Positions 1,968 through 42,729 of a DNA stretch of 64,000 bases are shown piece after piece. This DNA is from Polytrichum commune (taxonomy: Eukaryota; Streptophyta; Polytrichopsida; Polytrichales; Polytrichaceae): contig OX485806.1 of NCBI GenBank assembly GCA_950295325.1, forward strand, positions 32,800,001 through 32,864,000. Direction: 5' to 3'. Made by a program: the position numbers and the translations under genes. A model generated the notes under the pieces. The model did not search any database, was not told where the DNA came from, and worked only from the letters and a program-made list of their open reading frames with translations. Within the stretch, counting starts at the first letter, position 1. The number at the start of each line of letters is the position of its first letter.

Positions 1968-2279
1968 TAATAATGCAAGTAAGTTATTTTGAACGATAGG
2001 TGCAAGTGTTGAAAAACACTTTACTCTATAGTCAATGTTACATTTAGTCATATGAGACTTCCACACTCCTTGCCTATCTTATTGAGCCTAACACTTGCCT
2101 AATAACTATTTTAGTCTACGATTGGTTTAACACCCTATTGGGTAGTTTAGTGGCACCCTCCACACAATCTTAGCCTTAGCTTACTACTTCTACCAACTGT
2201 CCAATTAGCCATGGGTACAACTCCCGCCTAGTTACCGGTAGCCCCTTGGTAGCCTCGGATTCCACCACTTAGTACTCCT

Positions 2280-5720: not shown

Positions 5721-6147
5721 AACATAACAAGGAGGCTTACACAGCCATTGGTATTCATTTCTTCTTTGTGAGGGAGAACCACACACGCCATGGACTCTTC
5801 CCGAAGCGACACACTTGTCTATGAACACTTAGCACTTGCTTCACAAACTATGAAATGATGGTCTATGAACACTTATTACTTGCTTCACAAACTATGAAAT
5901 GATGGTAACAATGTTACAGGTCTGTTTGTGTTGCCCCTCATTATTGGCAGTCACCCTCTACATATTCTCTTCTTATCCTTATTATCCTTGAGATCACATT
6001 CAACAGTAGCCATTAGCCATGGCTAAAACTCTGTTTCTTACTCTCAGGAAATCCTACTTTTACCCTGCTGATTTAGCTAGGCCTTAACACTTTAATCCCT
6101 AGCAAGCTAACTCAAACTTTGTCCACTTTGGGCTGGATAATACCTCA

Positions 6148-6175
6148 AACACTATATTCGTTAATTGGAGACTTT
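6148..6175 (+). repeat. Left terminal inverted repeat of element A
   Basis: Starts AACACTATATTCG and matches the reverse complement of 24279-24306 at 27 of 28 positions. The same start is seen at 61200 (element C) and, in the right-end version, at 41205 (element B). It is followed by a short self-complementary AGACTTTGGAAAGTCT. Confidence 0.9.
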
Positions 6176-6387
6176 GGAAAGTCTCAAAATAAATTGGACC
6201 CGTAGTTTCGGATGCGAATATTGTGAACGTAGCGAACATGGGGAACATGGGGAACAATGGCAACATAATGCTTTAAAGATCCATATGTGATGAATATATA
6301 TGTTTCTAAATATAGTAATTATTCAGTTGATAATCAAAACTATGCCAACACAATATTCCAATGACACGAAATTGCAAATTAGCATCT

Positions 6388-6671
6388 GCAATATAATTAT
6401 ATAGTTTAGGGTCCACATCCGTAAAAACACAGACAAAAAAAACATTTGGATTCCACATCCATAAATCAATGCATCCATGCAATATAATTATATAGTTTAG
6501 GGTCCACATCCGTAATAACACAAACATAAAAAGCATTTGGATTCCACATCCGTAAATCAACGCATCCATGCAATATAATTATATAGTTTAGGGTCCACAT
6601 CCGTGAAAACACAAACATAAAAAACATTTGGATTCCACATCCGTAAATCAATGCATCCATGCAATATAATT
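6388..6671. repeat. Subterminal tandem repeat, three units of 91 bp
   Basis: The phrase GCAATATAATTATATAG recurs at 6388, 6479 and 6570 and starts again at 6661, a fixed 91-bp period. Each unit holds two copies of a CACATCCGTAA-type half-site, the same sequence as one arm of the palindromes found elsewhere in the element. Subterminal repeats often bind the transposase in large plant DNA transposons, so this may be the left-end recognition array. Confidence 0.8.
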
Positions 6672-6786
6672 GTAATCTATAAAATTGCTATAAAATGTGT
6701 CTAATATAGTATTCGACCCCAATGTCATATATTTTATGAAAAACCAATACACATTCAAATATCTTTGGTCCAAACCTACGTCAATA

Positions 6787-9700
6787 TCATTCACCATCTT
6801 CATCTTCAGCTTCATTTCCATTCTCGACATTGTTTTCTGCAGCAGCAATACGTGCCAAGTTGTCTTTGGCAAAATCTATATGTTTTTGGGGGATGGTCAT
6901 TGTTTCAGTTTTGGAACCTTTGCGTGGTTTCCAAGCACAAAGTATGGTATCCGTGTTTATCCATATTGGTTCGTATGCTGAGTCCATTGTCCATTTGAAA
7001 CATTTTTTCGTGTCCCACCCTAAATATGTGCGGAGCACATTTTGATCTTTGGTGCTTGGACGGCAATATTCCACCTCAATTTGACGAAAATTTGGGCTAG
7101 TTGGAACAAAATTTGGTGATGACAATGCTTTCACCAACCAAATCGGTTTAGGATGTTCCTCATCTCCATGACGTACGAGGACCATATAACCTTCGTAGCA
7201 ATCAATAGCCACACGAAATGATGGAGCCGGACGATTACGAGCAGGGCCAACATAATGGTCGTCCGCCGCGAACTCTTCACGGACGTCCCCATTGTTGAAG
7301 AACATGGCCTCAGATTCCACGATTGTCACTCGGCTTAGTGGCCAAAAACCTTGTGTCAAACATGATGGTCTATCGTCTTCGGGTGCTAGCAACGCTGAGC
7401 GGATGCGATCCCAATACGCAATCAATGGTTTGTGGGTATCCCGAACACGTCTTGTGATGTCTTCCTCGCACAAATCTTTCCAGTACTCGATGAATCCAGA
7501 TATACCTTTGATGATTTCTGGTCCATTCTTCATGGGGTTGGGTTTGCAAGGCTTCGGCTCCCTATCAGGTAGCATACATTTGCCATCTTCGTTTTGGCGC
7601 CATACGAGTATCCCTTCCTCTGGACCCCAATTCGGGGAGGTACACAATACTTTGAATTGCATGGCCGGCAGATCATCATCACGCATATAGAATCGGAATT
7701 GTTGAGCCTTGGTATGGCCCACTAAGCGGTCACCTCCCTTAAGAATGAATGGTTTGATAAACGATTTGAAATCGGGCACTTTTTCAATCAAATGCGGGAT
7801 GACTGGCACATTATCCAAATCCATGTACGATTTCATGAGAAGAGGAATTGTGGGAAAATCCTCCTCGTGCAACTTCATACTCCAACGTCCGAATGAAGCG
7901 TCAATGTCATCGTGCGTGTGGCCAACCATCAAAAAGACACAAACACTTCTTTGAAAATGCCCTTGGCTACGAGCAATGACCAAAAACAAAATACGTATCG
8001 ACATTTGTTGTCCTTGGCACAATTATCAAATTGCATGTGTAGAGTTGGAGGCAAAGGTTTAGCAAAAACGGGTTGTTCATGCGGTTCTTACAGTGAAGAT
8101 AGGCAAACCTCCTTCCCCTCTAGCACAGCCTCATAAATCGGTGTTGTTCCACATCCAACAAAAAGAGCACAAGAAGATGATGTTGGCGGACTCTGAAGAT
8201 CTCGTAGAAGTTTTGCAAAAGACCCTACGGTATGATTGGTGTCGCCAGGATAGAAATCCAAGCCATAATGTGCATATTTCACGTCCACATGACCATGTGC
8301 GATCATACCTGCATTTAGCCACACAAATTGTATATATGAATGAAATTCAAAAATTTCCCCAAGCAAGCAAAATAATGTACACTTACGGACGTACATCCGT
8401 AAATCTTAACAATGAGTATGTGGGCGCGCAAAAATAAATGTGAAAACCAACAAACCTGTGACAGATATTGGAAGCTTGAAATATCCATCTGTAGCCTTTA
8501 TTTTCCGCGCATAACAAGGGCACGCCGTCTTTGCATGGTCCATTTTGTTATGAATGATTGTCAAAACCTCATTCGGCCTCATTATCGATAATGCGCGATT
8601 CTTGTAGTAGTCTTGACGGTGTGCCTCCTGGTTGTTGACATGCTCAATGTATTTTAGTTGATGTCGGTTGTGGGACTCAGTCCCAATGGGATGTGCATCT
8701 CGAAGGCCTTTATATTTCTCACAAGCAGAACACTTGGCAAACTTATCCCCAAGTCTCTTCGTAATGTATTCTGCGAATTGTTGATTCTTGATCACACTCA
8801 ATTTTGACAACGAAATCGGCCCACATCCAGTCTTTTCGCCAACTTCATTAACATCCATAAGTATGTTCTTCCATTTTGTCCCTGTAGGCAAAACCATCTG
8901 AACAACCTTTTCCCCCGACGGCAGAGTCCGCGTCTTGTGTGGCATCGCATCTGCCAATGGCATAATGATGGTTGATAGTGTTACAGCCGCTTGGAGTGTT
9001 GCCTCCCTGGGCTTCTTTGTGCCAGAGTTGCCATGGAACCGAGAACGGCGTCCTTGCATCGAGTAGTTCCGGAACCTATAAAAATCTGCCTTTGAAACTG
9101 CATGTATAATGTACCATGCCTTGCAACATATCTCTACATTTTCCAAGGTCACAACCTTACGACGTTCGACATCAAGGTGCATGTTGCGATGGACTTCAAG
9201 TTTCTTTGCAGATCGCATACGAAAGTCCGCGAGCCACATCTCTTATCTCAAAGATTTGATCTTGTCACGGGGAAATAGTTGGCAACATCTCTTTGCACAA
9301 CAATCCTTTGTTGCTACGGACCTAATAGATGCATCTCCCAATGTTTGATCTCGACGACGTTGCGTGGGTTCACGAGGCAAACGAAAGGAATCATATTTAC
9401 GCCGACCTATTCTAAGGCGCGTTGTGGAGAACAAAGCCGATTGCATTTGATCAAAACGGCGGGAATGATTCCACAAGCTGACACCATCATGAAGAACACT
9501 GCGCAACGGCCATCGACGAAGAGAGAATCTCCAACCAGAAGGCACTTCCAACGGATGTAAGGAATTCAAAATGCACACCCCCACATCTTCTTCCCCAAGG
9601 GGATTTGCATCAATACAATCCGTAGGATTCGAGTTCCGACAAACACCATCGGCCACCGGGACGCCACATCCATTGACTAGGACGACATCAAGATCAATCC

Positions 9701-9860
9701 ACTGCTCCCGCGAATAACCCTCACATGGTGGAAGAAATTCATCCTCTACATTGGCGACACCAATTATAGTATCTTATTCCACGACAACTTCAAACTCGCT
9801 ATCATAGCTTGACGCTTCCGAAAAAAATTCAACCCCACTATCACCGACGTTGGAATCCAT
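6787..9860 (-). pseudogene. Transposase-like gene of element A (GHTHDDID / DUF7869-type), inactivated
   Basis: Two exons, 9860-8456 and 8308-6787, separated by a 147-bp GT-AG intron that contains a palindrome. Together they cover about 975 codons. In order they show an acidic N-terminus starting MDSNVGDSG, a basic cysteine cluster (KDCCAKRCC), a CSACEKYKGLRD zinc-binding-like motif, DKMDHAK-type and CPCYARK segments, a DNCAKDNK motif and then VGHTHDDIDASFGRWS. The last block is typical of a eukaryotic family (DUF7869) that I believe to be transposon-encoded with an RNase-H-like core; that is family memory. Compared with the copy at 61605-64000, this copy has a stop TAA at 8088-8090 where the other has CCA (Pro), and a 1-bp deletion near 7931-7936. 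Further in-frame TAA stops lie at 9243-9245 and 9774-9776. It is therefore dead as annotated. Confidence 0.75.
8383..8402. repeat. Palindrome in the transposase-like gene intron
   Basis: TTACGGACGTACATCCGTAA, a near-perfect 20-bp palindrome of the element-wide family. It lies in the only intron seen in the transposase-like gene. Confidence 0.85.
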
Positions 9861-9989
9861 GGCCACTACAAGAAAGCCCAATGAAGAGTATGTCAAAATA
9901 TCCCATTCAATAAATGTCATGGATAGCCCTAACGCTTATTATTGTCAATGAAACACAATCTGAACAATAGTTGATATCATGGCTTGGAA

Positions 9990-10850
9990 ACAAAGACACA
10001 TTGGTATACGAACGTGCGTCCGTATACCTCCATGTAACAACATTAGCAGCGCAAGCACACGCGCATACGGATACATTTATGTGTTCATAGTCAGCGGAAA
10101 GGTGATGACAACCAAAACACCACTGATTTATGGACGCGCATCCGTAAATCGGCTCGTGCACAGAGTGCAGTATCATGCTAAACCACAACATAGGTATACG
10201 GACGCGCGTCCGTAAAAATGCAGTCCTAGACATGGTGGTTCAGGGAAGCGAGAGGTCCTGGCAACACGACCATGTATACGCAGGCCTGACGACACATGAA
10301 ATTTGAAGAGGTTATCATACACGCTTCCTACTATGTTCTATCAATGTCAAATATTATACTATGACACATAGGGTGATGTAGGCTAAGGGATGCGAGCTCC
10401 CAACCCTTCATGACCGTACAGTCTCTGTGCAATCCCCTACATGGCACATGGTCAACATTATGGCAACAAAGGTTTCCAGGTTTACGGACGCGCGTCCGTA
10501 AACCTCTGTAGACCTTTGTACTAGCCTAGATACGATGTACAACGCGACAAGGGGTTCACGTTTTACGGACGCGCGTCCGTAAACTTCCATGGCAATATAT
10601 TCGCATTGTGGTACTCGACACGACACGTGGTGTAGGTGACATACAGACACGACACGACACGTGGTGTAGGTGACATACAGACTCAACACGACACGTGGTG
10701 TAGGTGACATATGGCACCAAAGGTATGGAGGTTTACGGACGCGCGTCCGTAAACCTCAACGTACATGAGTATTGGATCAAACAAATAAAGGTTCAAAGAA
10801 CCAATATGATTAAGGTTTACGGACGCGCGTCCGTAAATCTCCGTGATTTG
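9990..10850. repeat. Palindrome cluster 1 in the spacer upstream of the transposase-like gene
   Basis: Seven copies of the TTTACGGACGC/GCGTCCGTAAA palindrome lie at 10003-10026, 10125-10150, 10195-10216, 10479-10504, 10562-10583, 10728-10757 and 10816-10837. The copies at 10479 and 10728 are perfect over 26 and 30 bp; the first three carry an outer or central base change. They sit just upstream of the leftward gene's first ATG (9860), where promoters would be expected. Function is unknown; see findings. Confidence 0.9.
10618..10715. repeat. Tandem repeat, about 3 units of 34 bp
   Basis: CACGACACGTGGTGTAGGTG recurs three times at roughly 34-bp spacing, between palindromes. ACACGTGG is a G-box-like sequence, so transcription-factor binding is possible but not shown. 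Confidence 0.8.
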
Positions 10851-11744
10851 CGGCGTTAAAATTGGAACATTACACCAGAAAGGATAACTGTCCGAAATAA
10901 AAATCCAGCACACTACAAGGATCCGGAGAGTGCAACCCAAATACAAATTCTCTACCCTAATGGGTTCAGGGCTTGGGGTTTAGTGTATAATAGGTCCATG
11001 CAATAGGATCTTTACCTGCACAAAATCTGTAGCAGGAGCACATTACAAGGGTCCAAGGAGCGCAACCCACAACTGAGATGCAAAAAGAGTCCCGACGGTG
11101 GGGGGGTGTCCCCTTAAGTACTGATCGCTTTCCCTTGGATCCGTTTTCCAACATAGGATACCAGCCACCAACTATGTCTTATAAATACAAACCTAGCATT
11201 ACTACATTCCGTGTTCCAGCCTTACAATGGAATGTGTATTCATGTGGACAACATGCATAGACCATGAGTCCACATAATGACAAAGAAAAAGACATCTATG
11301 TATTTGTGGTATACAATAAAGTAGATTGGCTAATATTATATGAGCAATAAACATTGTTGAGAGGTGGTTTATTGGAGCAATAATATTGGAGTACCTAATA
11401 TGAAGAGTACATTTTAAAAAACGTAGACAAAAAATTATATAATCGTGTGAAAAATCAACCACAACAACAACAATAGTACATGGAGTATAAAAATACATGT
11501 AATCAAAATTAAATTAGCAACTACTTTATTGTTTTGCATACAATGTAATGGTATTGACCATAATATCATGCTATCTCCTCTCATCTTGCATTTAATATTA
11601 TAATTACATTGGCCACCACCTAACCATCCAACATTTATAATTTACCCACCTATACACACCTATACATAATTGTATTCATATCTGATACAGAAACTTTGAT
11701 TACCGTAAGGCCATGATAGTAGCACATCTATTGTCCTAGGTAAC
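10850..11744. other. Spacer of element A without a recognised gene
   Basis: No coding region with motifs was found. A low-complexity CCACAACAACAACAACAATAG stretch lies near 11458-11475. The stretch ends at the duplication GTAAC of the nested LTR-like element. Confidence 0.4.
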
Positions 11745-12389
11745 TGTGAGCCCAAAATGGTGCCCACATGTGGTGATTAACTCTTCGAAACCAATTTTAG
11801 TTTGACTTTGAGGTGTTATGATTATTCACAAAACATAAAAAGAGTGAAGTGTGGTGTGGATTTAAGTTTAGGCATTAGAATGTGTTGTGTAGTTAATTCA
11901 AGGTTTTATTTCAATAAGAGGATGCCTTGACTATGTGAGTAAGGTGAAGCAAGGTGAGCTCCGCGGGTTAAATGCCCACTTTTGGATCCACCTTGGTAGT
12001 TTAGGAAGAAGGAAGCTTGGTGGATGGGGATGAGTCCCTACTTTGAAGGAGAGGGTTAAAGGATTGTGATTGGAGGTGCTAATCCTCTCATCCTATCCTC
12101 ACCTCTCTCACCCTCTCTTCCCTCTCCCTCTTTGCTACTTAAGGTGTTTTTTCTCTCATTTTTTTCTCTCTCCATCAAGCGCTCTCAAGGGAGCAAGCTC
12201 AAAAGAGCTTGAGCCACGTGTGTGTGACATTAGTTTTTAGTGAAGTTAATTAGTTAAGCTCCCTCTCTCAAGTGAGAGAGCTTAAGTTGCATGTAGTGAT
12301 TAGGTTGTAGTTAGCTAGAGTAGTGTGTTAGATTAGCTCTTGACTTAGAAGCAAAAGAAAGAAAAGAAAAGAAGAATTTAGAAGACCTT

Positions 12390-13030
12390 GATTAGCGGAT
12401 GGGAGGGTTTGTATTAGTAGTAACCAAGTACTACAAGGTTAGAGGACTGATTGCTGGGCTTCGAGCTAAACAACTGACTGTAGAAGGAATTGATCGCTGG
12501 GCCTCCAGCCGAGCAGTTGACTGCTGGGAGGTAAATAGCGACTGTTGGTGGCCAAGGCCTAAGGTTAAGGTACCTCGGCTGGGCCTCTAGCCGAGCTGTG
12601 GACTGCTGGAAGGCAAGGAGCGACTACTGGTAGCCAAGACCAAGGTTAAGGGACTGATTGTTGGGCTTCAAGCTAAACAGCTGACTGTAGAAGGTAAGGA
12701 GCGACTGCTGGTAGCCAAGGCTTAAGGTGAAGGAACTGATTGCTGGGTTTCAAGCTGAGCCGTTGACTGCTGGAAGGCAAGGAACGACTACTGGTAGCCA
12801 AGACCAAGGTTAAGGGACTGATTGCTGGGCTTCAAGCTAAACAGCTGACTGTAGAAGGAACTGATTGCTGGGCCTCCAGCCGAGCAGTTGACTGCTGGGA
12901 GGTAAATAACGACTGCTGGTGGCCAAGGCCTAAGGTTAAGGTACCTCGGCTGGGCCTCCAGCCGAGCTGTGGACTGCTGGAAGGCAAGGAGCGACTACGG
13001 GTAGCCAAGACCAAGGTTAAGGAGCTGATT
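12390..13030. repeat. Minisatellite in LTR-like element 2
   Basis: Imperfect units built from GACTGATTGCTGGGC, AGCTGACTGTAGAAGG and CTGGTAGCCAAGACCAAGG recur several times, with a higher-order repeat (about 12480-12660 resembles 12850-13030). Its sequence is unrelated to the minisatellite of LTR-like element 1, although it occupies a similar internal position. Confidence 0.75.
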
Positions 13031-13294
13031 GTTAGAAGGGACCTCGGCTGGGGTTTAAGTTAGTTAGTTAGCCCTAAGAATTTAGGCTACTAGGGGGGTG
13101 TAGTTAGGATAAATCCCTTGGGGGATTTCTAGACCATGCGAAATTCTTGCATGCCATCTTGGTTTTTAGGTAGAGTTGGATTTATTAGAAAATAGAAGTG
13201 TGTGGGACTTTTAAATGTGTTGATGGTTACCCATTGAGGCAAGTGTTTTTAAACACTCGTACTTTTTGGTTGGAATATATTACGTGCACAATTA

Positions 13295-13468
13295 ATGGAG
13301 ACTGTGGAGGATCCTAGCAAGGACACGATAAAGGAAGTAAAAATCAAGAAGTCTAGAGGGATCTCTTTAAGGGCATGTGTGGCCAAGGCCGCGGGTTGGA
13401 CCCTCGAGAAATCAAATGCCGCTATGAGCAAGGATGCTCACAATAATAAAGCAAGTGAGTTAAGATGA
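13295..13468 (+). CDS. Short conserved reading frame in LTR-like element 2 (57 aa)
   Basis: From ATG at 13295 the peptide contains an IKKSRG, LRACVAKAAGWTLEKSN core that matches the minus-strand frame at 1809-1967 over 53 residues without a gap. Both lie about 120-140 bp from the same element end. In this copy the frame runs into GCAAGTGAGT, a possible splice donor, at the point where similarity ends. I do not recognise the peptide. It may be the start of a retroelement gag or a regulatory peptide. Confidence 0.4.
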   Translation: METVEDPSKDTIKEVKIKKSRGISLRACVAKAAGWTLEKSNAAMSKDAHNNKASELR

Positions 13469-13594
13469 AGTTAGGGCCTTGGACATGAGAGCCATATAGC
13501 CATTCAAGTATTGGTATTAGGAACTAAATGTGATTCTCAAAGCCATCACCCGGACTAGGACGCTTAAGGGTGGTGGATTTGGCCTCACAGTAAC

Positions 13595-15900
13595 ATAGGT
13601 TGCATTAAATTCAATATTATCAATTTTCTCTCTAAACCTTAGGGGCCCCTTCCGTACATCAACATTTACTTCAAAAAAACTAATTATACTAGCCTTCTTC
13701 ATGTACTATACGTGAGGAAAAACATATTTTAGTACCTCATGTACATTACCTACATTAATTAATACTCAAACAATACCAATTGTTGCTCCAAGTAACATTA
13801 TTACCCTCAACCCTAAACCCTATAACCACCCAAACCTAAACAAACATGTGGACATAGAGATGCAAGCATGGTTAACGGAACAACTCCTGATACATGTCAA
13901 GGCTTAAGTGGAAAGTAATTCAAAACAAGCAAGCAAACAATTATACCAATTGTTGTTCTACGTAATACTATTAACCCATAAAATATAATGGACAGAATGG
14001 GAGGGTAGGGTATCCAAATAGTAATAAGGCAACCAATATTAAGTCGGTGACACAAGGGGGATACCCTTAACCCTTAACCCTAAACCCTAAACCCTAAACC
14101 CTAAACCGTATAAACGACTCCCGACTCATGTCAAGGCTTAAAATTCTCTAAAACAAAACCATAAAGATTTCAAAAGTCAAGCAAATTTATGTTCACAAAT
14201 TATTCTTGAAGACATGGTAAGTGGCGAAAAAGTAGGTGACATAGAACAAAGATTTATCAAATTGTGAATGGCAATCCGATATGTGGTCTTAATTTGGCTA
14301 AGGAAAAAGGTACTTGGGTTGCGTAACCTTACCTTTCATTTTTTTAATCTTTGTTTGCCTGGGTAAAATCCACCCCTTAGAGGCAAGTACAAGATTTAGC
14401 CGAGACTTCTTTGATGGGATACAATATGAAAACAATTAAGCCTTCAAAACATTTAAGATCATGAAAGTTATGTTCTAAGTCATATTTATCCATTTGCTTT
14501 AAACCTTTACTTTTGAAGATAGGTTTTGAACATCATATATTGGTATTCTATAATCGAATACTTAACACAACCATACATGTCGCCATGGAAACAAAACTCC
14601 AATATAAACAACAATTTGCTACTACTTATAGGCGATAATACAAGCTCATGCCTAGGTTTGGAAGGATTGCATGAATCCTGAAGGTTGTTTAATGGACAAG
14701 AGGGATGTAAATTCAACACCTACCCATTCCTTTTGTTCTAATACAAGCTTAGACCTATGTGCAGAGGGATTGAATTAACCCCTAACGTTGTTTAAGATAT
14801 TATAAGCATTTGATCTTAACCCATATTATCTCGATGTTTGGTTTTGTTAATTGTGTTTCAAACATGCTTAATTTAAATATCATTAATAATGATATTCACA
14901 TCAAAGCATCCCAAGTGTCCAACTTCAATAAAGTCCCCAAGTTGCTATTGATAGTATAATTTAGGTTGAAAATCCCCTTTCACAAATTATTGCGATAATT
15001 TAGGGATTCATAAGGGTGTAGGGGTTTAGGGTTAATTAAATTTTTGGCCAATGGGTATATTATTGTCCCAATTGCATTTGAATCCCACCTTTGTGGAAAA
15101 AATATTATACTTAACTTAATCAAGAAGACATACTTTATATTCAATATTATTACTATTCTCAAAATATAAAGTCCCCTCCATACCTGCTACACTAGAAATG
15201 GTATAATTTAGTTTCACTCATTGTTTGGAGTTACAAAATGCTTTGTCTTTTTTATTATTGATGTTATTTAATTAGAGCATTGAGATTCCTTTATTTTTGG
15301 TCAACAATTGTTTTTGGTATTCGTTTTTGGACTCAAACCACATACAATCCATCCTCTATAAATGTTATGCTCTGGAATATAATTTTCCTTACATTTATTG
15401 TGAGTTAACATTGTAACAACTATAAAGGGAGCTTTTTGAATGCTTAAAAAATTTGATTCATTACAATTATGGAGGGAGAGTTTTGCAAAATTATCAAATA
15501 TAAAATATGTGTATCAATCACAATATAACCCATATTAATAATTTGATCACAAAAGTCAAATTTGGTGGCTTTTGCCACTTTGAAAGGTTGTGACTCAATG
15601 TAATGGATGTCATCTCACAATATTGGATGTAGTTCGTAGGTTAACATTTATAAGTGGCAAATTAACAAAGAGGGGAATAAATTATTCTTAACATGTAACA
15701 AAGTTTACATTCTAGTTAGCAATATGAGAGGAGTACGAATTTGTTAACAAATACAATTATGAGTTAACATGTGGAAGTGTAACATTTATCGAGGGTGGAC
15801 TCTAGCAATCACAAAAAAGACCAATAGACATATGCCACGTAAGGGTTACATGTGGCCTTTGGGCGCGGGGTGATGGAACGTCTAGGTAGGGAGTGGATGT
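13595..15900. other. Element A spacer with telomere-like CCCTAAA run
   Basis: No coding gene recognised. At about 14060-14106 there is a run of four or more CCCTAAA units preceded by degenerate CCCTTAA units, plus a weaker match near 13800-13820. These are interstitial telomere-type repeats, which in plants can also act as telo-box promoter motifs. The rest is AT-rich. Confidence 0.5.
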
Positions 15901-16803
15901 GACGTTTAGGGTTTAGGGTTTCGATACACTCCCTTGCTCTTCGCTCCTTTCGCTCCTTTCGCTCCTTTTTTCTCATTTCGCTCCTTTCGCTTACTCCCTT
16001 TCGCTCCTTTCCTCCTCGCCCACCATCGCTCCTTTGCTCCTCGCCCTTGCTGGTCGCCCTTGTTGCTGCAGAGTATTCTCCTCCTTCTCCCTTGCTACTT
16101 TTGCTGCTCCTCCTTCTCCCTTGCTGTTGCTCCTTTTCCTCCTTCTCCTCCTTCTCCCTTGCTACTATTGCTGGTCCTTCTCCCTTGCTGGTCCTCCTTC
16201 TCCTCCTCCTCCTTCTTGTTGTTTCTCTTCTTTCTCCTCCTCCTTGCTCTTCCTTTGTTGTTTCTCCTCCTCCTTGCTCTTAGTTCCATAAGAGCGCCAG
16301 GAGCTCCAGGCAGGTGTTTTTTTCTTTCCCTCTTTGAAAGATGTGTTGTTCCAGGTGCTAATTAGGTGATTTGAGTTTATGTATTGATGCACAAGAGGAG
16401 GATTGTGAATATTGTGTGAGCATGCAATGTTTTGTTGCACTCACAATTGCAAGTAACATAAAAAATTGAGTAGTTTTTTGCTTGCAGTCTCAGTACGACA
16501 TTAATGGAGTAGTTTCACTTGTTGCAAGGGTTTTAGGGTTGGAGTATTTTCAGTTGTTTCAGAGTGCTCCTCCTTTCAGTTTGTAATTGTCTTCACTTCA
16601 CTTTTTCCTAGTTCTAAGAAATCATGTGTTTTGCTTTGTTCACTTCAATGTGATATCCATGTTCAATCCAGTGCAATCTTTGTAGTAGGGGTTTTTTTGT
16701 GGGTTTGATGCATTTGAGGAGCAACACACAGTTTAGTTGATTCTTGAATGTGCACATTGCATTACCAGAGGTTTCTAACTTCAATTTTATTGTTATTTTG
16801 CAG
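15900..16803 (+). promoter_or_regulatory. Pyrimidine-rich promoter / 5'UTR region of the multi-domain gene
   Basis: A GTTTAGGGTTTAGGG telo-box-like motif (about 15905-15922) is followed by repeated CTCCTTTCG units and a long CT-rich stretch to about 16290. A short transcribed exon with good splice borders follows at 16804-16849. This arrangement resembles a plant core promoter with a Y-patch and a leader. The long CT-rich frames in this stretch are low complexity and are not called as genes. Confidence 0.4.
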
Positions 16804-16849
16804 TCTCTCCTAGCTGGAGCTGTGGTTTAGAAGCAAATATTGTACAAAG
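16804..16849 (+). other. Putative 5'UTR exon of the multi-domain gene
   Basis: The 46-bp segment is preceded by a T-rich tract ending TTTTGCAG and followed by AAAG/GTAAGTG. Both are strong splice borders. Joining it to the acceptor CATTTGCAG at 17776 gives a 927-bp leader intron, and the ATG starts directly after that acceptor. Not proven without transcript data. Confidence 0.45.
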
Positions 16850-17100
16850 GTAAGTGTTTCTAGTACATTGCAAATTGAAATGGAACATTCTTCTTAGTTT
16901 GGAGTGTAGAATCTGCTATTGCAATGCAACACCTGATACATTCTAATTTGGAGTGCAAATCCATGTTGCATTCCAAGTTAAGATGAACATTGCACATGAA
17001 TGGAATGCAACAAAGAAGCTGTTCCGAAAATTTCGGAACAATATCCAGAAAGACATTAATTGAGCAAAGTAATTAAATTCAGAGTAATTAAAAAATGGCT

Positions 17101-17721
17101 TGAAGTTTACGAACGCGCGTCCGTAAACTTCAGGGAACCCTGGGAATATGCATCGCACTAGGTGTGAACAGTTTACGGACGCACGTCCGTAAATTGTAGA
17201 TATATTTAAAAATAACTATTTAAAAACATGAATGAGAAGTTTACGGACGCACGTCCGTAAACTTGAGATATCTAAGTACACTAAATCAAATACATGATAC
17301 ATGTGCAGAGTTTACGGACGCGCGTCCGTAAACTAGGCAGAGAAAACTATGAAAATCTCAGAGTATAATACATGTCATGGGTTTTCAAAATAAGTTCTAC
17401 AAAATATACAAGTTCTACACAACAAAAATGAATTTATTTTCCAAAAATTTACGGACGCACGTCCGTAAATTAGGGCTACATATTAATAATAAACATATTA
17501 TATTCATGGAATATAGAAATAGAGACTTTTGGATGATATATGTGCAGAGTTTACGGACGCGCGTCCGTAAACTCTGCACATATATCATGTATGAGATTTC
17601 TTTTTATAAGATATCTCAAGTTTACGGACGTGCGTCCGTAAACTTGACATGTACTATATCATAATACATAACCACATTCTATAAGAAAGGGTACGCAAAG
17701 ATTTACGACCGCGCGTTCGTA
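17101..17721. repeat. Palindrome cluster 2 in the leader intron, with a 56-bp perfect palindrome
   Basis: Eight palindromes lie at 17101-17132, 17172-17193, 17237-17264, 17309-17334, 17446-17471, 17533-17588, 17617-17646 and 17702-17721. The one at 17533-17588 is perfect over 56 bp. The block is also inverted on a larger scale: 17237-17340 is nearly the reverse complement of 17540-17646, with matching flanks such as CTTGAGATATCT and AGATATCTCAAG. The whole block can fold into one long hairpin of about 400 nt. It lies between the putative leader exon and the ATG at 17777, so it would be intronic. Confidence 0.9.
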
Positions 17722-17776
17722 AGATAGGAATGCATCCCTAGACCTTAATACTGACTTGTATATTTTACATTTGCAG

Positions 17777-20149
17777 ATGGAATTTACAAAAAGACCCGCT
17801 ATTGATATATTCGCAGAGCTTGTCCATCCTCGGCTTCCAAAAGCCATTAAAGACATAAGCCACAATGACCATTACAAGCCACGCGAAGACATCGTAAATA
17901 ACTGGACAGTTATTGTAGAAAAAGACGAAAATGATATATTTGTCCTTAGATTTGCCTATAAAATAAAAGCAGATATACATGAATCCGAGAAATGGATGAA
18001 GGTTAAAAACTGGACAGTAGAGTGTGCGGTAGCCCAAGGTGATTATGTTGTCATTGACCTTGAAAAGAAAAATGATAGGATCACATTCATTTTGCACGAG
18101 TTGTACCATCCGTTCAACAAAAATGAATGTGAAAATGCCAGCCCAGATGCGTCTTGCTTCGATCTACAAAATGAATTCCAAGACTATGCATGCAATGCAC
18201 CCTGGACGGGTAAACGGCTTGGACGTCTCTTGAACAATGTCACCAGAGTAAATGGGGCATTACTGGAAGCCAAGAAAGGAAAGGAGAAAAAACTAGTTCC
18301 TGAACGACCTAAACGTGTTCCTAAACACGTGCCAGAAGCCTCCAGACCCTCACAGAGTGGGGCATCAAGAGGGAGCAAGCAGGCCAGTAAACGCTCCCAC
18401 TCACAGATGGAGTCGTCAGGGCTAACAGAGGGTCCAGATGTGAGCTCTACTCTTACTGTCGCACCACTCTTGAAGAAAGGACAACGCCCTGACGTCGAAC
18501 TTTCCACAAAGATTTTCCAAGAGTTCGACGAGAAGACAAAGGGCTGCTGGCCACTTGGAAGGTATTTCACGTTTGATGTGGATGTCTACAAATGCCACAA
18601 GGGCACGGAGAGTATGAATACTCGTGCCAAAGAAGAGACCGGGGTGTGGTGGAAAATGAATAACATTATGAACAACCCCAAATTTGATAGGCAAACCATA
18701 TGTGTGATACCAAAGGATCTTGTGGTTGAAGTCACAACACAAAACTGGCTAATTCTCAAAGATGGAGAGTTCTACATAGTCGATGGCCAACATAGTGTGA
18801 TGGCTGCAAAAGCTCTTCTAGAGGACGATGAGTGGAAGAGCCCTTTGAAAGAAACAATCCGATACTGGAAGGCATTCGTCGTCCATTCCAAAGACTCGAA
18901 CCAGCTCATCGCAATATCTGCCTTCATGAACCAAGGGAATAAAGTGAGGCAGTTCGAGGCTTCATGGGCTGCCAACATCGTGGCTGGAAGGACCTTGTGG
19001 GTGGAGCACGATTGTCCCCCAAAAGAGAGGGAGAATGCAGTCATCAAAAATTCCAAATGGCAGGTATGTCTCAGTATAATTTTACGGACGCGCGTCCGTA
19101 AACTTCTTCCCATCTCCTTCCAATTCTTTAATTCCTTCAATTTAAACTCTGTTGATTTCTTGTAATACTTGGCATTGCAGACATTCAGCAATACCATCTT
19201 GACAAAGTTCTCCAGCATTGACTTGAAGACAAGCGGTATGAAGATGGTGCAGGAGCTGAAGGGAGAACTTAAGCTCATCACCGCCACACAAGAGACATGG
19301 GCAATTTGGTTGCGTCTATTCGATGCCCACAACAACGGAGACCTTATCAATCCGGATGCAGAAAACACGTACAAGAGCGACTCGAAGGTTAAGGTGCCAC
19401 CTATCCTGAGAGAGTTCTTTCGTTCCCTCCAAGGATTGCTCGACTCCGAACTGTACAGAGCGGCACAACACATCCTATTGGAGACTCTGAGGAGGACACT
19501 GCCCTACCCCAAAATCTTTCTGAAGCGACCTATCGACGAAAGAGAGACGGCGTTGTACGTCCATTTCCTTGACAGAAAAAAAAAAGCAAAATTCGGAGGG
19601 GTCGCAAGATTCTGCACTGTTACAACGGCCTTGAAGTTTGGCACATGGGACACACATACTTTAAGAGCCTCTGTGAGAGATGACCCCCAGGGTTGTCTGT
19701 TTGCACTATTTGATTTCCGTGCATTTCCCGGATCTTGGAGACAAAACGCTAGCGGGACCGCTTTTTATGACAACTTCTTCAAGGCCTTCAAGAGCTATCG
19801 GTCGCCTGCCCTCTTCGAGCCAAATGTGTGGCTCTGGATCGTAGATCAAGAGAGGTCCGCATCGGTCATCCAGCTTTACACATCGACGATGAACCTCCAA
19901 TACGATCTTTACCACAACACATACATCCCCGCGAAGACGGAAGGGATCAGTGTTATTGAAGAGGCAAGAGGGGCGAAGCAGGTCGGGGCTTTGGCACTTT
20001 ATTTCTTGACACACAAGTCTTCACCAAGTGGGCGGATGCCTATCAAAGTGCAGAACGTGTTCAAGAAAGTATACTCGTTGCCACCACCACACCCAAAGGA
20101 GCTTGTCGCGGAGACTAGGTATGCACTCTACCCGGCGTACGAGCTCTGA
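17777..20149 (+). pseudogene. Multi-domain gene, part 1: ParB/sulfiredoxin-like DGQH domain protein
   Basis: ATG at 17777 lies directly behind a splice acceptor (17776). Exon 17777-19063 (429 codons) joins exon 19181 onward in phase 0; the 117-bp intron holds a perfect palindrome at 19081-19102. Residues 1-150 form an unrecognised domain. About 170-250 is a basic Ser/Pro linker. About 330-390 has ILKDGEFYIVDGQHSVMAAK, which resembles the 'DG-HR--A' core of ParB N-terminal / sulfiredoxin-fold domains; the usual Arg after His is Ser here. A later segment (about 560-640) with FPGSWR and NVWLWIVDQ could be a degenerate methyltransferase-like fold, a weak guess. A TGA at 20147-20149 ends the frame, but the same frame stays open for 32 more codons to a donor at 20246. 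The stop is therefore probably a mutation in a longer gene. Confidence 0.55.
19081..19102. repeat. Palindrome in intron of the multi-domain gene
   Basis: A perfect 22-bp copy with core TTACGGACGCGCGTCCGTAA, fully inside the 117-bp intron 19064-19180. Confidence 0.9.
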
Positions 20150-20245
20150 ATGGATTTTTATATTGGAGTCTTGAAGGCTGTGACTGTGATGAGTGAAACA
20201 GTTTACAACGTCTTCGGAAGCACCAAATTTTTTTACGCGGCATTG

Positions 20246-20441
20246 GTAAGTACTTGTATGCACCTCTTTTCATGCTCCATCTGAATTGAAATTTTTGGCC
20301 GCGCGTCCGTATCATTGTCCACCACATATGCAGTGCAAATTTTCGGCCGCGCGTCCGTAAATTGCAGTGCTTCATGATTATATTTGTCCTCATACTTGCT
20401 TGCAACAATGGAATGACTAGAATTTCCTTGTTTTGGTGCAG
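20246..20441 (+). other. Intron with two palindrome copies
   Basis: Donor ATTG/GTAAGT at 20246 and acceptor TTTTGGTGCAG at 20441 join phase 0 to phase 0. The intron holds two degenerate palindromes, 20292-20311 and 20341-20362, where the left arm reads GGCCGCGCGTCC. These have lost symmetry relative to the consensus. Confidence 0.55.
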
Positions 20442-21915
20442 ATGCTTGGGTTGCAGGTAAATTCGTTTGTGGAGGCTCGCGACATGGATGAGGCGAATAC
20501 TCATAGGGTTCTTGCCTCCAAAATGGATATCGAAGACATCATCGATGTCCTTACCCCCCATCCTGTGGTGCCTCTTGCCTCAAGAGAAGAGGGAACTCCT
20601 GCGACGGAGTGGGACAGTGACGGAGACCAAGAGCCCGTCTTCCCAAGAGAGCAGCCAGCCAGACAAGATCACGTGCCCGGCCTTGTTCGTGATCCTGTTC
20701 ATCCTCATCAATTTGTCTTGGGCGAAGACCGCATGGATACAGAGGGGGCGCATGAAGACTTCACTCCAATAAGAGTCCATCCTACCCCTATTTCCTCTCC
20801 CTTTGGGACTCCCACTTCTCGAGTTGGGTTTCCTTCCACTGCGGGTCCATCGCGTGCTGCTGGGCTTATGGCAGAGAAGGATGTGGACGTTGCGACAGAA
20901 GCCGGATGCACAACCTCATCTGGAGGGGGATTTGAACAGGCAGAGCTACCACCTATGGAGGGTAGAGATGTGCTGGAGTTGATTTTGAGTCCGGATATCG
21001 CCTCATACCGTGCTCCTCATATGTCGACAGAGGAAGAAGACTCCTTACAACGAGTACCCTGAAGGCGCCGTCTTGGAACTCTCTGATGAAGACGAGGATG
21101 AGGTTAGGATGTACAATGCCCTCTCTGCGTTGCCTTCTGAACCTGGCAAGGTGAAGAAAGAGCCGATGTTTGTGGCCGAATTGGATGAGAAACTAGAGAA
21201 GAGAATGAAGGAAGAGCTTGACCAACGGCTTCGAGAAGCTAACGAGGAGCACGCCAAAAAGATGGCCGCCATCCAAGCTGAGATGGAGGAGGCTAGGTTG
21301 GAGTCTGCTCGAAGGCACGCCGATCTCATGGCTCAAAATCAACAATTCTTGGCCCAGAGCCAACAATTTATGAGCCTCATGCAGAGCTTGCAAGCAAGAC
21401 CCCCAGTAATGTATGCAGCTCCCGAAGCCGGCATGTCGATGCCTCCCACTCTCATGCGGCCTCCGTCTAGTAGCCATACGGTGTACATACCAGAGCATAC
21501 CTATCCAGCCCCCGCCTTGTATGTCCCGCCCTCTCCCCAGGTTGCCGCCACCCCAGAGCCCTCCTCTCATACCGTACGAGAGGAGGAGAGACCTGCACGT
21601 TATACGGCAGGTGCTTACGAGAAAGGCGCCATTGAAGACATCACAACCATTGGCAGCCAAGAAGATGAAGATATGCGGGGCAGCCAAGAGGATGAACATA
21701 TGCGGGGCAGCTAAGAAGATGAACATATGCGGGGCAGCCAAGACACCACAGATGAAGATCAACCTCATGTCGATACCCAGGGGTCGCAAGCGGCTGGAGG
21801 CGCCTTGGTGGTGGAGGATAGCTTGCACAATTTTGCGGACGCGTGTCCGGAACCTGTGCCCACGATGGGGCCTGGTGAGGGAGGCACTGCTGGCAAGGGC
21901 CTCTCTGCTGAAGAG
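20442..21915 (+). pseudogene. Multi-domain gene, part 2: acidic / coiled-coil middle region
   Basis: The exon starts ATGCTTGGG after an acceptor and ends GAAGAG/GTAATC. The first frame is open to 21062. The region continues one frame over, from about 21030, through an acidic segment (ELSDEDEDE) and a long charged helix (about 21180-21380, KRMKEELDQRLREANEEH). A Pro-rich part follows, then three 27-bp GSQEDE-MR repeats. The exon length is 3n+1, so a single 1-bp insertion near 21040 explains the switch. A TAA at 21712-21714 in the third repeat is CAA in the other repeats. Element B carries the homologous exon end at 47592-47819 (minus), with the same donor position, which supports the exon border. 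Confidence 0.5.
21831..21852. repeat. Palindrome inside a coding exon
   Basis: A diverged palindrome (TTTTGCGGACGCGTGTCCGG) that would be translated as part of HNFADACPEP. Element B has a differently diverged palindrome at the homologous codons (47664-47681). Confidence 0.65.
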
Positions 21916-22255
21916 GTAATCCACCTTTGAGCTTGCCTCCCACGTTACGGACGCGCGTCCGAAACTTCCTTGTCTGCCAACTTCGTGGCGTGTGCATATT
22001 GTCGAGTTCGATGCTCGACTTCGCCCGGCGGGTGGATGCAATTTTGCCAGCATAGATTCAATTAGTTTTAGGGGAGACCCTTTGTGACAATGTAAATTAT
22101 TCGCGAAATGTATTAAACCAATCACATTAATACAAATTTTTTGAACTGCGTATTCGTATTCTTTTTGCCTTATATTCGTTTGTTGAGTTTGTGCATGCTT
22201 GTCAATTGGTTTTCATGGGTAGTACCATTCACCTAGATAATATTTTCCATCACAG
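21916..22255 (+). other. Intron between the middle region and the phosphatase exon
   Basis: Donor GAAGAG/GTAATC at 21916 and acceptor CCATCACAG at 22255 join in phase 0. A palindrome lies near the donor at 21944-21965. Element B has the same donor, a palindrome close behind it and the same acceptor context (AATCACAG then GGCCCCCCGG). This is good evidence for one continuous gene. Confidence 0.6.
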
Positions 22256-23023
22256 GGTCCGTCGGAGATATGTCGCAACCCCGCTGAAAGACCAAGCCGG
22301 CCCATGAGGAAACCGTTCATAATATTTGACCTCAATGGGGTGCTTTGTCATTCCATGCATATCTCCAATAGTGCGTCGAAGGGTCCCTTCCGTAGTCCAC
22401 AAGACATGGATTACGGCGGACAATTCTATACTCTCATTAACAAGAAGGTTGTACGGGCCCGGCCGGGGTTGAGGTGCTTCCTTCGTGATGTCCTTGGCTT
22501 GGCCCATGTCATCATCTGGAGCTCTATGCTCATGGACAACACGAAGGCCATCGTCGGTTTCCTTTTCCGAGAACTTGCAATGCCATGCTTGCTTCTCGGT
22601 CAAGAACACTGCGATGACCTTTATGACCGTAATGGCAACATTGTACCCAAGGTCGGAGGAGGCCGAGGGCCTCAATTCCTAAAGGTACTGAGGAAGAACC
22701 TTTGGGTGGGCGTCCCTATGTTGGAGGGGGTGCCCCACGGTTGTTGGCCCACCCCGGAGAACACGCTCCTCATCGATGACAGCCCGGCAAAGAGTATTCT
22801 CAATCCCCCGGGCAGTTGCATATTCCCGGATCCTTGGGAGAGTGATAGAAATGACAACTTTCTAGAGAATGAACTAGGACCCTACATTAGGAGGCTTGCC
22901 TATCACCCCGGAAGTGTCCCGGATTTTGTCCTCTCCAACCCCATTGGCAATAGGCCTCTAGGCCCAAGAGATGAGGAATTTAGGAGGTTGTACGGCTATG
23001 CCAAACTCAATAAATTAATATGA
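22256..23023 (+). CDS. Multi-domain gene, part 3: FCP1/NIF-type HAD phosphatase domain
   Basis: The exon begins after the acceptor at 22255 and reads GPSEICRNPAERPSRP before the first methionine at 22304. Element B conserves these residues, so translation most likely enters from the upstream exon rather than starting at 22304. The domain shows FDLNGVLC (HAD motif I region), RPGLRCFLRDV, HVIIWSSM (motif II region) and NTLLIDDSPAKS (motif III/IV), then FPDPW. This matches plant NLI-interacting-factor / CTD-phosphatase-like proteins. The second Asp of the usual DxDx(T/V) is Asn here (DLNG), as in a known plant subgroup, so activity is uncertain. The stop after KLNKLI is conserved in element B. 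The family usually dephosphorylates proteins such as RNA polymerase II tails; the substrate here is unknown. Confidence 0.7.
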   Translation, partial: GPSEICRNPAERPSRPMRKPFIIFDLNGVLCHSMHISNSASKGPFRSPQDMDYGGQFYTLINKKVVRARPGLRCFLRDVLGLAHVIIWSSMLMDNTKAIVGFLFRELAMPCLLLGQEHCDDLYDRNGNIVPKVGGGRGPQFLKVLRKNLWVGVPMLEGVPHGCWPTPENTLLIDDSPAKSILNPPGSCIFPDPWESDRNDNFLENELGPYIRRLAYHPGSVPDFVLSNPIGNRPLGPRDEEFRRLYGYAKLNKLI

Positions 23024-23111
23024 GAACTGCTTTTTGGGTTTGTACTTGGACTCTCCATGTTTATATCTAACATTTCTCCCCGTATTTTGTAAATGTATTT
23101 TTGTGTCTTAG

Positions 23112-23996
23112 TTGCCTCACCAAGCATCCCAAAGTTTCGTCCATGGCATGTGTGCATCTAAACCGGGCCCCAGCTCCCCTACCATTGGTGTGACCGACAT
23201 TTCAATGCCTTCACTATTTCAATTTTCAGCCGTCGATGCCGCCTATGCTGTTGATTACTCCAAAGACTCGGGGTTTGAAGACAGAGTTGTCGATAGCCCT
23301 CCTCCAAAGGTTGCAAAACTCAATTACGCTCCATCTCCATCTCCATCTCCCCTCCGCAATGAGAAGCACGTTCCAAACCCGCGGTCGACCAGACGCCTTT
23401 GTATGGATGAACCCCAAATTGATGTCCCGGCGTTTACGAGCGTCCCTGTTGTGCTTGTGGCCCCCCTCGATGTCGCAGAAGCTCAAACCACCGCCCCGCA
23501 GGCCAAGGTGCCCAATTATTGGCATTCTCAAGTTTTTCCTTCATGATTTCCGTGCATTAGTGGATTTCATATTCTTGGGTTTTTCGGACTTCCATCCATA
23601 ACTTATACTAACCCACGTCATTATATGTATTTATGGTCATTGTTTCAGACCCCAATACACATGAATGTGGGCCGTTCATCCTCGACTTCGTCATTGGATA
23701 GGCGAACACTGAAGACTGCTTCATGCGAGTCTGATCGTTGTTTGGCCCTACGGAAGAGTGCAAGACGTTCGGTTTCCCAAACGCATTCGTATTCCACTTA
23801 TTCGGTAGGGGGTCGGCAAATATGGGCAAATGGCACATATTCGGGGTCGACAAATAAACAAGGTTACAGCCGCAGACCTGAGATCTTTAGAGCCATGGAG
23901 GCCATGAAAGCAAAAGAACGTGAAACGACCGTAAATGCTAATAATAGTATTGCAAAAGCAAAAGTAGTGAGTCGTAATCATGATCCGAACGTATAG
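23112..23996 (+). CDS. Small Ser-rich basic protein of element A (two exons)
   Basis: Exon 23112-23507 joins exon 23649-23996 in phase 0 (donor GCCAAG/GTGCCC; acceptor TTGTTTCAG). The first in-frame ATG is at 23148, but the frame is open back to an acceptor-like TGTCTTAG at 23111, so an upstream leader or exon is likely. The N-terminal part has SMPSLFQFSAVDAA and VDSPPPK. The C-terminal part has RSSSTSSLDRRTLKTASCES, SVSQTHSYSTY and a Lys/Ala-rich tail. It has no recognised domain. Element B has the same two exons and the same splice sites (42596-42072 and 41918-41598, minus), so it is a genuine element gene. It could be a DNA-binding or phosphorylated partner of the upstream phosphatase; that is inference. 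Confidence 0.6.
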
Positions 23997-24278
23997 GCTA
24001 TATTAACATACATGTAGTTGTGGAATTATGTTTCTAGGACTTTCGCCTAATATTGGATATTCCACTTGCATTTTGTACTTCAACCCCTATTCAATAAATA
24101 TGATATTGATTTTCCATATGCAAATGTTTTCATATATCCCATTTTCTTATTTTTAATGTGTAGTTCCATGCATTTGAGTCTCTTGTTTGTTTCCAAAATT
24201 GGGAACATAGCATATTTTTAGTGTTTTCCTTCCTACAAATGTGAAAGCCACGTCCTTAAATAGTCTCAAAATCAACAA

Positions 24279-24306
24279 AAAGTCTCCAATTACCGAATAT
24301 AGTGTT
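24279..24306 (-). repeat. Right terminal inverted repeat of element A
   Basis: Ends CGAATATAGTGTT, the inverted copy of the left end. The inner 60 bp (AGTCTCAAAATCAACAAAAA) are shared with the right end of element B at 41205 onward, so the right end is distinguishable from the left end. Confidence 0.9.
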
Positions 24307-24310
24307 CTCA

Positions 24311-25134
24311 CCTCATTCTAACTTAGCAGGCTAAAGCTCGAGCTTGCGTACTCGTATAATTAGCGTCCAGCAAGGGAGAGATGACATTATTCAGCCATGT
24401 GGATCAGTTCCACTGATCCTGGAATATGTCAATAATATTATGTGGGGCCCATGAACACGGTAGGGATCAGTGTGTATGTTTGACAAATTTCGGTTGACGT
24501 TCAAATTCAAATCCAAAGTGTAATGTGATGTTTTCAAAAACAAAAACGAATGTCAATTGACAACTACATTTTCTTCTAAAATGTCACCTCAATGTCACAT
24601 GCCTAGTAGTATGTGTCAATTGACATGTGGTTTTTTCTTCACAAGTCATACTACATGTCAAAATCTAAATTGTGCGTGTCAATCGACGTGCAGTCAATTT
24701 TTGTGCAACTTCTTGCGTGTCAAATGTCAAAAACTTGCAAAAACTTTGTCAAAAATACACACTGGTAGGGATATTTGTTTGGCATTCATACAATCAGGGC
24801 CGACACTTGGAAATTTGGGTGGAGTTATAATCCCAATCTACTCACAGGAATCACTCCACTTCCCGACTCTATTCACCAGACGCAATATTGTTCATCTAGA
24901 TCTAGACGGGCATTATTCACTGACAATACTATTCATATATAGCTACCCTATGCACTGACAATACCAACACTATCCACAACATTCATACTATTCATACCGT
25001 CATCGGTTCGTTCCTGTGAAGAGATAAGATAGTGGAGGCCCACATCAGATGTGGCTAAATATAGAATGAAACACAGCCATGCAGAGCTGAATGATGTTGC
25101 GGGAAACGACGTAAATTTGCGACAACAGATTGAA
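24311..25134. other. Gene-free stretch related to the 60-61 kb repeats
   Basis: 24380-24470 (ACATTATTCAGCCATGTGG, GGGGCCCATGAACA) and 24810-24860 (AAATTTGGGTGGAGTT) resemble segments of 60230-61060, just outside the left end of element C. A dispersed repeat family is likely. No coding region recognised. Confidence 0.45.
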
Positions 25135-42596: not shown

Positions 42597-42729
42597 CTGT
42601 GGGCAACAACAACAACAACAACAACAACAAAAGACATCCAAAAATGGAGCAAGCATTAGATAGGTGAACCACATGATAACAAGCACATACATGAAGGCAT
42701 TTCAAATCAATTTATTGAATTTTGCGAGC

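Follow-up and report, generated by a model that had tools for sequence, protein, structure and literature searches.

The element in the window

The stretch of DNA analyzed here, referred to as the window, comprises 64,000 nucleotides of Polytrichum commune (GenBank assembly GCA_950295325.1, contig OX485806.1, positions 32,800,001 to 32,864,000) and contains a complete DNA transposon, element A, at positions 6148–24306, recognized by sequence inspection and an end search. It carries two divergent genes, a leftward gene for a probable transposase (gene 1) and a rightward gene for one large second protein (gene 2), together with clusters of palindromic sites whose sequence is particular to each family of related elements (Table 1). 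A search with the 28-bp end, allowing up to three mismatches, returned four matches in the window against none expected from 100 shuffles. An earlier sequence-only reading of the window had described inverted ends of this length at 6148 and 24306 and a CTCA duplication; both were found exactly in place, the duplication on either flank.

The 18.2-kb content that the same reading gave is right as a span, but it includes a nested insert of approximately 1.8 kb, absent by alignment from three other copies of the family (E1, E2, and E3), and element A is longer than the approximately 16.4 kb of other copies because of this insert. The insert has a relative in inverted orientation at 1673–3484, and a 5-bp overlap at this place in the alignment of A with E1 hints at a 5-bp duplication and a long terminal repeat (LTR)-type insertion. 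The transposase frame of element A is broken, with four open frames compared with two exons and a 1000-codon frame in E1 and E3. In gene 2, palindromes at 19082, 20293, 20341, and 21945 lie within introns.

The same ends had also been reported at 41205 and 61200, and both are present. However, the first is only the right end of a broken copy (copy B), whose other end was not found within the window, and the second belongs to an element that extends beyond the window to 77315. This element C is complete, with a length of 16,116 bp, TCTT on both sides, and uninterrupted frames in both modelled genes. The shared small Ser-rich gene of the earlier reading corresponds to reading frames that have partial matches in copies B and C and a provisional gene model.

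Table 1. Features of the window related to element A and its relatives (window positions).
Feature	Position	Strand	Evidence
Element A, complete transposon of family A	6148–24306		Terminal inverted repeats, target-site duplication, homologous copies E1–E3
Left target-site duplication, CTCA	6144–6147		Flank reading
Right target-site duplication, CTCA	24307–24310		Flank reading
Left terminal inverted repeat, AACACTATATTCGTTAATTGGAGACTTT	6148–6175	+	End search
Right terminal inverted repeat, one base different from the left	24279–24306	-	End search
Three tandem repeats of 91 bp near the left end, with half-site-like CATCCGTAAA	6387–6674	+	Sequence
Transposase gene with DUF7869 (PF25273), four open frames in A	6787–9773	-	Open reading frames, Pfam, comparison with E1/E3
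Palindrome inside the transposase intron	8383–8409		Sequence, comparison with copies
Palindrome cluster 1, TTTACGGACG-NN-CGTCCGTAAA type, upstream of the transposase gene	10006–10843		Also in copy E1
Nested insertion of another repeat	~11744–13590		Inverted relative at 1673–3484; absent from E1–E3
Palindrome cluster 2, upstream of the second gene	17107–17648		Also in copy E1
Second gene: DGQH, middle, disordered/coiled-coil, and NIF/FCP1-like HAD exons	17777–23023	+	Splicing predicted from E1, C, and D502; carried to A by homology
C-terminal NIF/FCP1-like phosphatase exon, FDLNGVL at motif I	22256–23023	+	Open reading frame, Pfam
Small Ser-rich reading frames, provisional gene model	23112–23996	+	Partial matches in copies B and C
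Copy B (third, broken): right end and remains of the NIF exon	41205–43475	-	Homology; further second-gene part at 47649–47828
Element C (family C), left part: terminal inverted repeat at 61200, transposase exons	61200–64000	-	Runs to 77315 beyond the window

Genome-wide copies and families

The searched genome consists of 408 Mb in 64 contigs, seven of which are large (C1–C7), and the window corresponds to C4:32.80–32.86 Mb. Queries of 300–400 bp around the ends gave 853–958 first-look candidates each, of which the best 40 were scored. With the left query (6100–6400), the matches mostly start at query base 48–49 (6147–6148) and a few at 39–47, while with the right query (24020–24350) they mostly end at 287 (24306) and a few at 288–302. 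Similarity thus stops genome-wide at the proposed ends, as the sequence-only reading had suggested should be checked. The 17-bp terminal pattern AACACTATATTCGNTAA has 1346 exact sites in the genome (667 + 679) compared with two (1 + 1) for the reversed pattern. Among 100 of these sites listed on contig C1, neighboring terminal inverted repeats (TIRs) less than 20 kb apart (n = 30) point inward in 21 cases, outward in three, and in the same direction in six, and 15 of the 21 inward pairs are 14–20 kb long. Together with the target-site duplications (TSDs) and conserved genes described below, the terminal patterns uphold the claim of a real, high-copy family of giant DNA transposons.

Copies E1, E2, and E3 of family A are 16,385, 16,435, and 16,398 bp long, E1 and E2 being 98.6% identical along their whole length and E1 and E3 approximately 94%. 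Intact members measure approximately 16.1–16.6 kb, and one family reaches approximately 25 kb; for instance, the F692 element at C2:3656112–3681274 has 25,163 bp and the same divergent gene pair. AACACTA ends are limited to A, B, C, and D502, while F692, which shares the gene plan, ends in ATGGGGATATTAAC. This clan of giant transposons has been recently active: these DNA transposons of 16–25 kb have multiplied to hundreds of copies within a single plant genome, and dozens of the copies are near-identical. Among apparent longer elements of 27–61 kb with matching TSDs, the 61-kb one, of which 18 kb was sampled, contains D502-type sequence and, within a family-A element, an insertion of approximately 2.8 kb, suggesting nested insertion.

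Target-site duplications and empty sites

Matching 4-bp flanks were found in 31 of 32 independent insertions from four families (A, C, D502, and F692), and the consistent duplication predicted earlier thus held. The family-A sample is composed of 18 left/right end pairs from the scored matches and element A of the window, with four unpaired left ends left out; 18 of these 19 elements have identical flanks, corresponding to 17 of 18 independent insertions. Two of the elements, at C5:52095201–52111628 and C5:52143440–52159867, lie in opposite orientation with the same flanks and the same TSD, and thus represent one insertion that was duplicated in inverted orientation. The flanks also match in the single element C, in both D502 copies, and in 11 of 11 F692 copies when the ends are placed at ATGGGG...CCCCAT, a boundary chosen after viewing the flanks. 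The duplicated bases vary in sequence, with TTAA in two of the 18 family-A insertions.

For the empty-site search, the flanks of 18 insertions, a D502 copy among them, were joined with a single copy of the 4 bp (1795 bases), and the best 40 of 3677 candidates were scored. All 40 matches span the junction with 96%–100% identity, and among them paralogous empty sites, a check that the earlier reading had proposed, were found for five of these 18 insertions: C7:26.04 has 25 matches, C2:66.93 has 11, C7:19.4 has two, and C5:15.89 and one D502 copy have one each. Several of the 25 matches fall at F692 places (e.g., C2:3680949, within the F692 element at C2:3656112–3681274), and the family-A element at C7:26.04 accordingly lies inside an F692 element.

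The DUF7869 gene, a probable transposase gene

Gene 1 runs divergently from gene 2 and has a single intron of 133–148 bp in E1, C, and D502. The protein that the sequence-only reading called transposase-like for its GHTHDDID motif matches Pfam DUF7869 (E = 8.8e-16 for A and 2e-40 for copy C), which supports that description along with the DDD-like invariant residues. The motifs I(H/I)D(K/G)MD, QxDNC, and GHTH(D/E)D(I/V)D are invariant in six of six representatives, with identity down to 21%–24%. In E1, D513 of the second motif and D553, the invariant Asp of the third, are separated by 39 intervening residues, a spacing that suits a DDD catalytic core. From these motifs, the DUF7869 protein is inferred to be a DDD transposase performing cut-and-paste transposition, so that an unnamed family gains a likely identity. 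Between families A and C, the transposase is 84% identical in amino acids, with a nonsynonymous divergence (dN) of 0.100 and a synonymous divergence (dS) of 1.486, values indicative of strong purifying selection.

DUF7869 is present in high copy in this genome (1491 candidates, best 150 scored), while none of the 14 control genomes gave a match. To test for a viral link, IMG/VR was scanned with both the transposase and the DGQH protein, and no relatives were returned; a literature search on DUF7869, alone or combined with transposon, found no paper. A distant DUF7869 family (GHTHEDIDQRFS) was also noticed at three loci, L050, L051, and L052 (C6:41.94, C7:2.08, and C3:1.63 Mb). Its right end, ...TTAACGAAACCGGTGTT, consists of AACAC and TTCGTTAA as in family A; a left end was not found, and long arrays with a period of approximately 59 bp lie upstream at these loci.

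Gene 2 and its protein

The earlier reading had described a multi-gene cargo that included a DGQH-phosphatase gene. The view of loose passengers was abandoned, since the DGQH, middle, disordered/coiled-coil, and phosphatase-like frames are predicted to be exons of a single rightward gene in E1, C, and D502, a structure carried over to A, and the same parts occur in F692. Three phase-0 GT..AG introns lie at corresponding places in the three modelled copies, and K(L/F)NKLI closes the NIF exon of each. For C, the modelled gene comprises 1675 codons, with a provisional 5′ end, and partial models have 1437 (E1) and 1486 (D502) codons. In F692, a tblastn match runs across the DGQH and middle parts with 21%–24% identity, and the NIF match is significant. 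The conservation of these parts in four families suggests a core gene and not cargo.

The C-terminal part belongs to NIF (PF03031; E = 2.4e-12 for A and 4.5e-11 for F692). NIF/FCP1-like phosphatases of the HAD group use the catalytic motif DxDx(T/V), which does not occur in the NIF exon of E1, C, D502, or F692; instead, all four families have DxN at HAD motif I, namely DLNGV in E1, C, and D502 and DVNGI in F692. With this altered motif, the NIF-like domain may or may not be an active enzyme. Between A and C, its exon has dN 0.302 and dS 1.398, consistent with purifying selection; in exons 1–3, dS is saturated, and the proportion of nonsynonymous differences is lower than that of synonymous ones (pN < pS). 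The amino acid identity of exons 1–4 between A and C is 51%, 53%, 34%, and 62%, compared with 84% for the transposase, and gene 2 is, judged by these values, faster-evolving than gene 1.

Searches of solved structures gave no credible match, and a phage scan with the DGQH protein gave one match, which was meaningless. With its NVFGGSKFxYAAMMLGL motif, the middle exon resembles by eye the terminal part of permuted DNA methyltransferases; this has no profile support and is not claimed. In E1 (10133–10135) and D502 (9644–9646, both in element coordinates), an in-frame stop lies between the N-terminal and DGQH parts. Stops at similar places in two diverged copies may reflect chance or a small unrecognised intron.

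Family-specific palindromic sites

The most surprising part of these elements, and one beyond the features listed by the earlier reading, is a set of palindromes specific to each family. With up to four mismatches allowed, 22 sites were found in E1, 29 in C, 42 in D502, and 26 in F692, compared with means of 0, 0, 2.7, and 1.95 for up to 40 permuted half-sites per element. From the centre, the right half-sites are CGTCCGTAAA (A), CGTTCGTAAA (C), CGACCCAAAC (D502), and CACCCGTG (F692), which have bases 1 and 5 in common and differ in the rest. The sites are clustered upstream of gene 1 and of gene 2. In addition, each of the nine introns modelled in gene 2 (E1, C, and D502) contains at least one site, the first of which lies approximately 6–47 nucleotides from the 5′ splice site. 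In F692, one site separates the two frames of the transposase, probably within an intron whose position differs from that in E1, C, and D502. Sites entirely in exons are few (1/22 in E1, 2/29 in C, and 2/42 in D502), given that exons, by approximate limits, make up 43%–47% of the element. All five fall in exon 3, which encodes the disordered part (E1 13912; C 12769 and 13145; D502 13417 and 13486, in element coordinates). Within 700 bp of an end, there are no sites in E1 or C, two in D502, and six in F692.

In the genome, there are at least 1174 exact sites of the A/C pattern, which was searched with CG alone as its centre, and 9731 and 953 of the D502 and F692 patterns, which had free centres; reversed controls gave none. 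CG is the centre of 13 of the 22 sites in E1 and of 4 of the 29 in C. Symmetry is found in 49 of 50 different A/C sites that were listed, though the pattern permitted asymmetric ones, and for 39 of the 50 an exact TIR lies no more than 20 kb away with the site on its element side, compared with 3.9% of random positions; by cluster, the count is 9 of 13. In total, this genome contains over 11,000 exact sites of the four types, which offer a substrate for studying how the specificity of such a reader would change. Exact sites of the D502 type are approximately 10 times as numerous as those of the F692 type, and some lie more than 100 kb from the nearest listed exact TIR (C1:438280–478027), suggesting that non-autonomous or other families may share the code.

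The two central bases are variable, while the flanking bases are 86%–100% conserved, and few of the changed pairs within families can still pair, even with G-U counted (7/27, 7/26, 3/15, and 6/17). A free centre, conserved neighbors, and mostly unpaired changes are what is expected of a DNA site bound by a dimer and not of an RNA stem.

Other frames in the window

NB-ARC, Roq1-type winged-helix, and leucine-rich repeat (LRR) frames were also found in the window. They point to a land plant as host, and the seven large contigs and a kinase beside the NB-ARC frame would tentatively fit a moss. Kinase, NB-ARC, and LRR frames of the disease-resistance type stand in a row on the minus strand at 48024–53025, beside the broken end of copy B (~47.8 kb), and the LRR part contains near-identical 72-bp units.

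Proposed mechanism and alternatives

The inverted ends, the 4-bp duplications, the empty sites, the hundreds of copies, the two divergent genes conserved between families, and the like placement of family-specific sites are directly supported. The reading favored here, with a confidence slightly above even, is that these are autonomous, Sola-like cut-and-paste transposons of 16–25 kb whose second protein would read the palindromes of its own family and keep that family expressed, its binding and anti-silencing roles being suggested by analogy. The second protein would be a family-specific regulator, acting as a dimer on the palindromes that precede both genes and on those in the introns of its own gene. 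Reading of the sites would maintain transcription of the family, and the probable route would be to counteract CpG methylation and silencing, in the manner of VANC proteins on VANDAL elements. As families split, sites and reader would change together, giving each family a private address.

FCP1-type enzymes are phosphatases of the RNA polymerase II tail, and an FCP1-like domain would suit promoters and the vicinity of 5′ splice sites. A more specific proposal, possible but on the doubtful side, is a self-addressing expression code, in which sites in promoters and just past the 5′ splice sites would be read by a co-evolving protein that brings the FCP1-like domain and overrides silencing of its own family alone. 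If true, the VANC strategy would have been invented independently a second time, here with another protein, a symmetric site, and transcription-coupled action. A general idea also becomes testable, namely that transposons repeatedly evolve private DNA addresses and matching readers and so escape silencing without waking others; the palindromes are also possible parts for targeted epigenome editing.

Several observations weigh against the favored reading. The DGQH part is ParB/DGQHR-like by motif only, and Ser replaces the arginine normally present in DGQHR. Its best profiles are weak: the PHROG 'ParB-like partition protein' reached E = 0.023 in one of three members and Pfam DUF6551 E = 0.08, below the cut-off, while copy C gave no such match in Pfam, and a comparison with NCBIfam returned none. 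Both AlphaFold models have a low confidence (pLDDT 35 and 32) and are unusable. As regards the sites, two single permuted controls reached 36 (D502) and 23 (F692) matches, the gene-1 intron common to E1, C, and D502 contains a site in E1 only, 11 of the 50 listed A/C sites have no exact TIR whose element side reaches them within 20 kb, and the L050-type family has no repeated palindrome in the approximately 8 kb examined. Sites near the D502 and F692 ends may have a role in transposition itself, and it is possible that a host factor reads the palindromes. Among the insertions, the family-A one at C3:56.3 Mb has no matching TSD (1/18).

Plain self-regulation is known from TnpA of Spm and from phage-type repressors, and the palindromes could likewise be ordinary transcriptional operators through which the second protein, as a repressor or activator, would do no more than adjust the promoters of its own gene and the transposase gene, independently of silencing. 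The sites are of the symmetric dimer type and lie directly upstream of both genes, for which a self-regulating circuit suffices. However, a plain operator is not needed in introns, and all nine second-gene introns contain sites; moreover, VANC motifs are reported in a similar distribution over introns and upstream regions (PMC5735166). This explanation is rated as rather unlikely. The sites might instead be read by a host protein, be chromatin or methylation features, or serve the transposition complex, with the second gene otherwise employed. This is consistent with their CpG richness and with the terminal sites of F692 and D502, but a host reader would favor a common sequence over four different ones in similar positions, and the absence of terminal sites from E1 and C speaks against a transposition complex; this group of explanations is considered unlikely.

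Hairpins formed by the palindromes in RNA, close to 5′ splice sites or within leaders, would account for the short distance of the first intronic sites from the splice site. Yet the would-be loop bases are conserved about as well as the stem, most changed pairs are unable to pair, and many sites are in clusters upstream of genes, which makes hairpins very unlikely. NIF domains are common in eukaryotes, including plants, and the second gene could accordingly be captured host cargo, a passive passenger; this is given hardly any weight, as the order of its parts is identical in families with transposases only 44% identical, and dN is well under dS where measurable.

Comparison with known systems

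A literature search of titles and abstract beginnings found no paper about such elements. By the published description of features, the superfamily is most likely Sola. In PMC10741241, Sola elements are described as having a DDD transposase, a 4-bp TSD, and highly variable termini, with sizes mostly of 2–9 kb and some of more than 15 kb, and as being present in the moss Physcomitrella and apparently uncommon in flowering plants. The elements described here agree in the 4-bp TSD, the variable TIRs, and sizes of a kind on record; their three invariant Asp-containing sequence motifs, present in six representatives, would also suit a DDD transposase. They differ in the second gene of approximately 1600 amino acids and in the family-specific palindromes, which are absent from that excerpted Sola description (PMC10741241). 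The sequence-only reading had held the superfamily to be not nameable with confidence from the 4-bp duplication and AACACTA ends; the ends are indeed limited to A, B, C, and D502, but the duplication combined with the DDD-like motifs points to Sola.

CACTA/EnSpm elements have a 3-bp TSD and end exactly at CACTA, and Spm is regulated by its TnpA protein, which binds to a set of repeated sites. CACTA occurs within the ends found here, and repeated sites are present as well; however, membership was rejected, as the elements extend 2 bp beyond CACTA and their TSDs comprise 4 bp. Furthermore, the related F692 family ends in ATGGGG, and the terminal 700 bp of E1 and C are free of sites. A TTAA target is typical of piggyBac, Kolobok, and Sola3, which were excluded by the varying TSDs of family A. 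The DGQH motif and clusters of palindromic sites recall ParB/DGQHR proteins with parS, but differ in the lack of a significant profile match, in the Ser for Arg replacement, and in the fusion to a NIF-like phosphatase.

VANDAL elements are Mutator-like; in Pfam, the transposase proteins of A and C matched DUF7869, and Mutator models gave no match. In PMC5735166, VANC21 of Arabidopsis VANDAL21 is reported to bind the 9-base motif YAGTATTAY, which is followed by loss of methylation; within its own family, the motif is enriched in introns, between genes, and in non-coding sequence at the ends, while VANC6 recognizes different motifs and acts on different targets. As in that account (PMC5735166), the elements described here carry short motifs that are particular to each family and lie mostly in non-coding sequence such as introns and upstream regions, often as arrays, along with a variable second protein that is not the transposase. 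In contrast to the 9-base VANC motifs of that account, their sites are two-fold symmetric and 18–22 bp long, the protein has DGQH and NIF-like parts, and the transposase and TSD are different. By this analogy, the system would be convergent with VANC and built from different parts.

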